Below are positions 11,245 to 32,535 of a stretch of DNA of 33,528 nt, one piece after another. A model generated the notes under the pieces. The model did no database searches and was not told where the DNA came from. It saw nothing but the letters and a program-made list of their open reading frames with translations. The translations under genes were made by a program, and so were the position numbers. The DNA lies in assembly GCF_024462775.1 (NCBI RefSeq), contig NZ_JANGCE010000037.1, forward strand, positions 1-33,528, written 5' to 3'. The DNA is from Butyricicoccus faecihominis (GTDB lineage: Bacteria; Bacillota; Clostridia; Oscillospirales; Butyricicoccaceae). How positions within the stretch are numbered: position 1 is the first letter of the stretch; the number at the start of each line of letters is the position of its first letter.

Positions 11245-11276
11245 TTTTAACTCCTTAAACTCTATACGGAACGGAA

Positions 11277-11306
11277 GTAGACCTGAACGATGTCGTTCAG
11301 GTCTAC
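11277..11306. repeat. Left copy of stem-loop flanking element copy 1
   Basis: A 30-bp hairpin, GTAGACCTGAACGA paired with TCGTTCAGGTCTAC around a 2-nt TG loop. The identical 30 bp occur at 11523-11552, in the same orientation, on the other side of the 216-bp element. Confidence 0.9.
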
Positions 11307-11522
11307 TCAGACTATCAAAAAACTATTTTTGACAGTCTGTCGATCGAAACAAAGCCCCATTTCGATCGAGAATTCCGGCTTCTGCGCGTGCCTTACAGGC
11401 ACACTTAAAGCCGGTTTGTATAAAAACCGAGATACATGCTCCCGGTTTTTATGGATTTTGCCGCAAACGGCAAAATCCTATTTTATGCGCGCTGCGGCGC
11501 GAAAGGTTCTTTGACAAGCTGA
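11307..11522 (+). mobile_element. 216-bp structured miniature element, copy 1
   Basis: This non-coding segment is closely similar along its length to 26146-26361. Its ends are TCAG and CTGA, with short imperfect terminal inverted repeats of the form TCAGnnTGTCAAA. Inside are successive inverted repeats: an end hairpin, TCGATCGAAA/TTTCGATCGA, CCGGCTT/AAGCCGG enclosing GTGCC/GGCAC, ATAAAAACCG/CGGTTTTTAT, GGATTTTGCCG/CGGCAAAATCC and CGCGC/GCGCG. A frame through both copies encodes similar peptides, but it reflects shared DNA and has no good ribosome site. No transposase is present, so it would need help in trans. It separates the NhaC and maturase genes. Confidence 0.8.
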
Positions 11523-11561
11523 GTAGACCTGAACGATGTCGTTCAGGTCTACTTTTTTTTT
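11523..11561 (+). terminator. Right copy of stem-loop, with T tract
   Basis: Same 30-bp hairpin as 11277-11306, followed on the plus strand by nine T, which gives a canonical plus-strand intrinsic terminator. The T tract overlaps the stop codon of the minus-strand NhaC gene. For NhaC transcripts the hairpin is preceded by A9 but not followed by T, so termination in that direction is doubtful. Confidence 0.7.
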
Positions 11562-26111: not shown

Positions 26112-26114
26112 AAA

Positions 26115-26145
26115 ACATCCCCACATGTTCGACATGTGGGGATGT
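26115..26145. terminator. Left stem-loop flanking element copy 2
   Basis: ACATCCCCACATGT pairs with ACATGTGGGGATGT around a TCG loop. The A tract before it makes it a canonical intrinsic terminator for minus-strand transcripts coming from the polyamine operon. For the MATE transcript it is not followed by a T run, because the element begins at once. Confidence 0.85.
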
Positions 26146-26361
26146 CAGGCTGTCAAAAAATAATTTTTGACAGCCTGTCGATCGAAACAAAGCCCCATTT
26201 CGATCGAGAATTCCGGCTTCTGCGCGCGCCTTACAGGCACACTTGAAGTCGGTTTGTATAAAAAACCACGCACATGTCGCGGCTTTTTATGGATTTTGCC
26301 GCGAGCGGCAAAATCCTATTTAATGCGCGCTGCGGCGCGAAGGGTTCTCTGACACGCTGAA
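26146..26361 (+). mobile_element. 216-bp structured miniature element, copy 2
   Basis: Closely similar to 11307-11522 over the full length, in the same orientation, with the same order of internal hairpins. The first hairpin here is perfect (CAGGCTGTCAAAAA/TTTTTGACAGCCTG). The right end is CGCTGA, and the terminal inverted repeats again have the form TCAGnnTGTC. It lies between convergent genes, MATE and carboxynorspermidine decarboxylase, inside what was probably a single bidirectional terminator. No protein is convincingly encoded and no transposase gene is present. Confidence 0.8.
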
Positions 26362-26397
26362 ACATCCCCACATGTCGAACATGTGGGGATGTTTTTA
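26362..26397. terminator. Right stem-loop flanking element copy 2
   Basis: Same 14-bp stem as 26115-26145, but the loop is CGA, so this copy is the exact reverse complement of the left one. It is followed by TTTTT on the plus strand and acts as terminator for transcription from the MATE side. Confidence 0.85.
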
Positions 26398-32127: not shown

Positions 32128-32535
32128 CGCCCGGCTCCTTTTCTGTTTCAAAAAATAAAAAATCCCCAAGTGCGGATGTGCGCATAGCAAACATCTGCTC
32201 TTGAGGTCCAAGCAATTTCTACACTGCCGCTTTCCGGCCGGGGCCGGGCAAACGGGTTTCGGTGGCAGAGGAAGAGTCTATATAGCAAGAATCTACTTTT
32301 ACTACTCTTATTGATGGTTTCACAAGCGTGATGTGCGTCGCGCACACGGCCTTTTAGACAGCCAACTTATAAAATTCAATAAGGCAACAAAGTTGCCATG
32401 TTCGGCATTTGACCCGGCTGTCCGTATGGCCTTGGCTCCCCTTGTGAATCCGGCGGGTGCAGGGGGCGGTCAAAGAATTCTGCTGGCAAAGGCTTTGCCT
32501 CTATCCAATCCGATCGAAACATATGTTTCAATGTA
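32128..32535 (-). ncRNA. Structured leader RNA of speD, class not recognised
   Basis: From the promoter at 32542-32570 to the speD start there are about 408 nt without a gene. On the minus strand three nested helices form a rod: AGGCAA/TTGCCT (32495-32500 with 32382-32387), TTGCCA/TGGCAA (32484-32489 with 32393-32398) and TTTGACC/GGTCAAA (32468-32474 with 32408-32414). They are separated by symmetrical 5/5 and 9/9 internal loops. Downstream are a GTGTGCG/CGCACAT hairpin (32341-32347 with 32331-32337), a CTGCC/GGCAG-closed arm, and an intrinsic terminator. It is either a riboswitch-like attenuator or an independent small RNA. It does not match the riboswitch, 6S, SRP, RNase P or tmRNA signatures I know. 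Confidence 0.55.
32145..32206 (-). terminator. Intrinsic terminator inside the speD leader
   Basis: On the minus strand CCTCAAG pairs with CTTGGGG, with an inner GCAGATGT/ACATCCGC helix (32164-32206). Two T runs (32145-32163) follow. It stands 18 nt before the speD start codon, with no promoter between, so speD needs read-through. Confidence 0.8.

Follow-up and report, generated by a model that had tools for sequence, protein, structure and literature searches.

A gene-less element with IS1182-type ends is flanked by two copies of its target hairpin in Butyricicoccus faecihominis

In Butyricicoccus faecihominis, insertion of a 214-bp element turns one hairpin into two, which then flank the element. 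The resulting repeat tracks the length of the hairpin and its dyad, and neither the sequence nor the orientation of the hairpin matters. We consider it probable that the element is a MITE of an IS1182 clade that inserts into hairpin-forming palindromes, often terminators, and that it transposes by pathway b of a published structure-dependent model, which duplicates the whole stem-loop. That IS1182 elements target hairpins and palindromes is known; what seems to be new is the observed duplication of a whole hairpin, in a use of targets that has been poorly documented.

The element and its copies in two strains

The window, the whole 33,528-nucleotide stretch of DNA analysed here, holds two copies of the MITE, both on the plus strand. 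Comparison of copies sets the edges of the element at CAG...CTG and its length at 214 bp. Copy 1 (11308..11521) has a left terminal inverted repeat at 11308..11323 (plus strand) and a right one at 11506..11521 (minus strand). It lies between two copies of a 32-bp target hairpin, one at 11276..11307 and the other at 11522..11553, the latter followed by a T tract. Copy 2 (26146..26359) lies between copies of a 33-bp hairpin at 26113..26145 and 26360..26392; the right copy is again followed by a T tract, and the loop of the left copy is inverted relative to the right. No strand is assigned to the hairpins. The two hairpins are unrelated in sequence, as the sequence-only reading had said, and the repeat and hairpin pairs stand where that reading placed them. 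Its 216-bp element (11307-11522) shrinks by one base per side, and its TCAG/CTGA ends become CAG/CTG, the outer T and A being target; once these two bases are moved into the repeated hairpin, the hairpin abuts both ends of the MITE. As also expected, the MITE is small and without a transposase, with no open reading frame of 100 aa or more inside it.

Copy 1 has minus-strand genes on both sides (Na+/H+ antiporter family; radical SAM/SPASM), copy 2 lies between convergent genes (MatE family; decarboxylase), and the sister strain has both copies. Across the entire window, no family of group II introns scored as high as its Rfam gathering threshold, which argues against a group IIC intron. Elsewhere in the window, positions 32402-32472 (minus strand) match the Streptococcus sRNA family SpF59 (RF02440) at 65.5 bits, over a gathering score of 37.2, here outside Streptococcus.

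The MITE is present in at least 40 copies in the host genome (G000; 3.69 Mb, 56 contigs) and in at least 40 in a second strain of the species (G040; 4.0 Mb, one contig). A 285-bp query gave at least 53 matches, pieces included, in the former and at least 48 in the latter, lower bounds because both genome searches scored 40 of more than 100 first-look candidates. The G000 set comprised 38 fetched loci with flanks plus the two window copies, 40 in all, with more copies at contig edges; the G040 set comprised 41 loci (30 from one search, 11 from another). At all 81 loci we aligned the 90 bases left of the element with the 90 bases right of it. Before counting, we left out one locus at a contig edge (L046) and one whose flanks are those of another (L017, those of L016), leaving 79. 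L016 (C27:31929, plus) and L017 (C27:7159, minus) share identical flanks in opposite orientation on one G000 contig, which suggests a large inverted duplication or an assembly fault.

A hairpin repeat private to the locus abuts the element in 64 of the 79 copies (30/38 in G000, 34/41 in G040), counting repeats that score at least 35 and lie within 3 bases of both ends; in 52 it is gap-free at both ends. The repeats are 23–44 bp long, with a median of 32. Their midpoint coincides with the hairpin dyad in 48 of the 64 and lies within 1.5 bp of it in 62. At most two further base pairs form outside the repeat in 51 of the 64, which places the joints at or near the stem base, whatever the length of the stem. 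Such repeats are beyond chance: matched left and right flanks score at least 35 at 66 of 79 loci, whereas 3 of 6142 mismatched pairs do so once known orthologous pairs are excluded (12 of 6154 before most of these were excluded). Of 19 related MITE loci from the host genus outside this species, several of which are partial matches, 4 also have a hairpin pair (L058, L059, L061, L062).

Many targets look like terminators, in line with the sequence-only reading. With a crude rule for calling tracts (5 of 8 bases), we found a T tract on the right only at 16 of the 64 targets, an A tract on the left only at 14, and both at 10, so that 40 have a T or A tract and 24 have no clear one. The MITE enters either way, without orientation bias relative to the tract (16 vs 14). 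Copy 1 lies between two minus-strand genes, yet its T tract suits plus-strand transcripts. Because of this mismatch and the 24 tractless targets, "hairpin" is a safer word than "terminator", and the target is best called a hairpin that is often terminator-like.

The MITE also contains hairpins of its own. In a set made up of window positions 11308-11521 and 62 further copies, two-sided changes occur at 26 of 52 predicted pairs, and 32 of 3273 cells are broken; shifted controls gave 3–9 two-sided pairs, with about 60% or more broken. This covariation may stem from selection for a structure, in RNA or in DNA, or from copying between arms, of the loop-inverting type. Longer variants of about 257–310 bp share the same ends (L036, L037, L042, L043, L044; in G040, L125, L126, L129, L133, L134, L138), L036 being longer than the others by our script's reading. 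These too have hairpin repeats wherever the pair is intact.

Filled sites and their counterparts in the sister strain

A G040 copy with a matching flank exists for 11 of the 40 G000 copies. A further 28 copies from G000 and 30 from G040 were sought in the opposite strain by means of 75 bases of their left flank, which located 26 and 23 sites, respectively (49 of 58). We called a site empty when it held a single hairpin and no element and the length difference equalled the repeat within 4 bases, comparing both orientations. By this rule, 32 of the 49 located sites hold a single hairpin without the element. Duplication of a complete stem-loop as the target, proposed from the sequence and seen in the 64 copies, is real. 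The hairpins differ between loci and the empty sites hold only one, so the flank belongs to the locus, as first read; the empty sites rule out that the hairpins are part of the element. Stem-loop replacement of the IS1272 type is likewise ruled out, since all 32 filled and empty pairs keep the stem-loop and duplicate it.

The remaining 17 located sites are varied. One hairpin is shortened or lost in the filled strain at L023, L031 and L123; the sister site has an element in the opposite orientation at L010, L021 and L138, or element remnants at L106, L111 and L118. At L133 the sister contig ends inside the element at the same place, so this site is shared, and at L139 the sister site runs into a contig end. 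At L038 other DNA interrupts and the sister site starts with one hairpin; at L033 the sister site has a different hairpin. Four sister sites differ in other ways or fit no class (L037, L041, L140, L142). Copies without duplicated hairpins, which the sequence-only reading would have held against itself, do exist (15 of 79), several of them shortened or interrupted when compared with the sister strain (L023, L031, L123, L038). Its other counter-case, both hairpins without the element, has no intact example among the 49 located sister-strain sites; at L118/L191, two hairpins have only the right end of the element between them.

Hairpins and copies have also changed after insertion. The loop is better read as inverted in 4 of 89 hairpin pairs: the pair around window copy 2 (26113-26145 vs 26360-26392), L039, L134 and L138. 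In the sister strain, the loops of window copy 2 and L039 are direct (L135, L128), so these inversions are later than the insertions. The loops of the empty sites L190 and L181 are also inverted relative to the filled strain. The one element of L149, in G040, stands between the left flank and hairpin of L021 on one side and the right hairpin of L028 on the other. L021 (C3:36690) and L028 (C3:26647) lie about 10 kb apart in G000, and one simple crossover is insufficient because the orientation of the element in L149 is reversed.

Kinship with IS1182 elements and spread of the trait

By its ends, which are those of IS1182-family elements, the 214-bp element is classed as a MITE of this known family. 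It has no transposase gene, at least 40 copies per genome, and target duplications. At the start of contig C9, the host has its one match to PF13751, a 123-aa fragment that is cut by the contig edge and scores 91.2 bits, below the IS1182 cut-off. After the fragment come GGTTCTTTGACAGTCTG, an end of the IS1182 type, and a hairpin. No intact transposase was found with this fragment across 25 genomes, including both strains, or with a full-length relative across both strains (the host assembly breaks at repeats; G040 is one contig). Scanning genome contigs with the fragment, we took the best 80 of 203 loci, many of which are ISs of ~1.5 kb with ends like CAGnnTGTCAAAAAAC...GTTCTTTGACAnnCTG. Three full-length transposases score 388.8 (L201), 393.9 (L213) and 379.7 bits (L194) against the IS1182 model NF033551 (cut-off 270 bits). 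The right end of the MITE is identical to that of the IS in L213 (AP018533) at 16 of 16 bases, and its last 18 bases match the inverted left end of the same IS at 17. A transposase with similar ends, the object of the search that the sequence-only reading recommended, thus exists in autonomous IS1182-type elements. The unusual mobile class with an unfamiliar transposase that it envisaged falls away: IS1182-type ends and the NF033551 scores rule out a new class.

Autonomous relatives duplicate hairpins too. In 53 of the 80 top-ranking loci (out of 203), our script picked a pair of ends, and 25 of the 53 have a whole-hairpin duplication of 18–64 bp (median 32), exactly centred in 21 and no more than 1.5 bp off in all 25. 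The remaining 28 divide into loci with a wrongly picked pair, loci with unlike hairpins at their two ends and loci in which no repeat was found; 27 loci gave no pair of ends, many at contig edges. The complete genome AP018533, of Clostridiales bacterium CCNA10, has nine loci, with matching hairpins in L209, L213 and L214, unlike hairpins at the two ends in L199, L215 and L217, and no intact left end where expected in L206, L207 and L218. The duplicated length, put at about 30 bp from the sequence alone, is fixed neither here nor in the MITE copies, and the range of repeat lengths rules out a fixed ~30-bp stagger.

In a wider sample of 149 genomes of Bacillota, the host phylum, the IS1182 model matched in 91 and exceeded its cut-off in 23. 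Five of 30 returned loci have whole-hairpin repeats (L275, L276, L277, L278, L289), with CAG or GAG ends. A set of 60 loci, which includes some places taken again with longer flanks, was read by eye. Where the ends are CAG or GAG, matching hairpins stand on both sides in 8 of the 9 copies in G077, in 3 of 3 in G178 and in 3 of 3 of the first type in G061; the ninth G077 copy (L308) has two different hairpins. Other subgroups have short repeats of up to about 6 bp (the second G061 type, G128 and others) or no repeats (G134, G043, G186).

A transposase tree of 50 of 63 loci (the other 13, which had no phmmer hit or scored at most 40 bits, were dropped) groups the 34 hairpin-duplicating rows in a single clade (99/97), whose only other members are two unclassified rows. 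The 34 rows alone are rejected as a clade (p-AU 0.0005), because the clade takes in L279 and L281, whose ends are unclassified; the left end of L281 has a hairpin, with no match at the right end tried by the script. On this tree, hairpin duplication looks like a trait of one clade. Two IS1182-type elements have CCACTGAAAA ends: L288 has a 7-bp repeat, by eye on the loop of a short hairpin, and the flanks of L284 are partly complementary. They could represent pathway c, a loop-duplicating mode, for which two cases are too few.

A proposed route to hairpin duplication and its place among known systems

How could one hairpin become two? A full-length IS1182-type DDE transposase, supplied in trans, would pair both ends of the MITE. 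The palindrome would be present as two hairpins, most simply as an extruded cruciform, and the ends would be joined to opposite strands at the 5' feet of the two hairpins, as in pathway b of Wan et al. 2017. Joints at the two 5' feet meet only if the palindrome is extruded. Each flank would keep a single-stranded hairpin, and gap filling would yield a complete hairpin per side, the product we observe. With the stagger equal to the hairpin, the duplication would take its length from the hairpin and have its centre at the dyad. Both the cruciform and mobilisation in trans are what we infer, and the transposase apparently recognises DNA shape and not sequence.

A bolder version, on which our judgement is evenly divided, is that this clade of DDE transposases picks its target by shape alone, acting on the four-way junction of a cruciform and joining the ends to opposing strands at the hairpin feet, much as a resolvase would. 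If true, the target duplication would be whatever hairpin was present. IS1182 subgroups would then differ only in the point of attack: duplication from the 5' foot, replacement from the 3' foot (proposed for IS1272), and loop duplication from the loop edge (hinted at by L288). The predicted transposase structure (mean pLDDT 82.5) gave loose fold matches to the piggyBac, Tn5 and ISCth4 transposases, and no solved structure related to the transposase by sequence was found.

Other routes account less well for these observations. The hairpin might be met as a single strand, in the lagging-strand template or in the strand displaced at a terminator, with the other strand cut later at the matching place. 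Terminator-like targets are common, as this would lead one to expect, and the sequence data fit a single strand and a cruciform alike; joining both strands at symmetric places and the lack of orientation bias relative to the tract speak against it, and we regard it as improbable. We give still less credence to a transposase dimer with a long stagger acting on palindromic double-stranded DNA without extrusion: many repeats do lie near 32 bp, the median in both MITE copies and autonomous loci, but the span of 18–64 bp, the dyad-centred position and the ends near the stem base are unlike a fixed stagger. It is hardly credible that the hairpin pair travels with the element or was produced when terminators recombined, in view of the locus-specific hairpins and the single hairpin at 32 sister-strain sites; the unlike hairpins of L199, L215, L217 and L308, which favour this view, also fit an exchange between copies after insertion, since the right hairpin of L207 recurs, with one base changed, as the left hairpin of L199.

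The pathway b that we favour has been drawn before. The structure-dependent transposition model of Wan et al. 2017 predicts from it a stem-loop duplicated at both ends (PMC5678879), which is the product found here; the accessible text of that paper draws it as a possibility beside the pathway favoured for IS1272, without an observed case. IS1272 and TnSha1 likewise belong to the IS1182 family and enter hairpins, often terminators, without sequence preference (PMC4923244, PMC5678879). At their hairpin targets, Furi et al. 2016 described blunt deletions and no duplication (PMC4923244): the stem-loop is removed or partly deleted, whereas the MITE keeps and duplicates all of it. Palindrome targeting by the IS1182 family is attributed to Siguier et al. 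2015, as cited in PMC4923244 and PMC5678879. A study of an IS1182-like element published in 2025 states that transposases of this kind work both with and without duplicating the target, and that they may recognise a structure in the DNA (PMC12056078). A large survey counts IS1182 among ten families over-represented between convergent genes (PMC9208149), which fits terminators as targets. MITEPye1 of Paracoccus yeei is also small and gene-less with IS1182-type ends; unlike the present MITE, it is 159 bp long, with 4-bp direct repeats and 1–3 copies per chromosome (PMC11578231). A MITE review (PMC10969869) does not mention IS1182, and the accessible parts of PMC4438569 and PMC6450365 hold nothing further on duplication.

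Our literature search, which covered few subscription papers, turned up no account in which the duplication of a whole hairpin had been observed. ISfinder reportedly gives repeats of 0–60 bp for IS1182, so specialists may know of single cases. In CRISPR spacer acquisition and with casposons, a partly palindromic stretch is duplicated when integration takes place at its two ends. Those systems use one fixed repeat, whereas here sequence and length vary per site and the related enzyme is a DDE transposase; a duplicated sequence that differs by locus and measures 23–44 bp does not fit CRISPR adaptation or casposons.

The MITE thus provides many natural cases of an outcome drawn as hypothetical for IS1182, in which integration duplicates an entire stem-loop, whatever its sequence. 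With filled and empty sites available from two strains, the mechanism can be tested directly, and a DDE transposase guided by structure would be a useful tool to mark hairpins or cruciforms in living cells. For the host, insertion should carry little cost, since a hairpin remains on both sides. Landing beyond gene ends and leaving a hairpin on each side may explain how at least 40 copies per genome are carried with little harm, and the private hairpins serve as bar codes for later recombination between copies.
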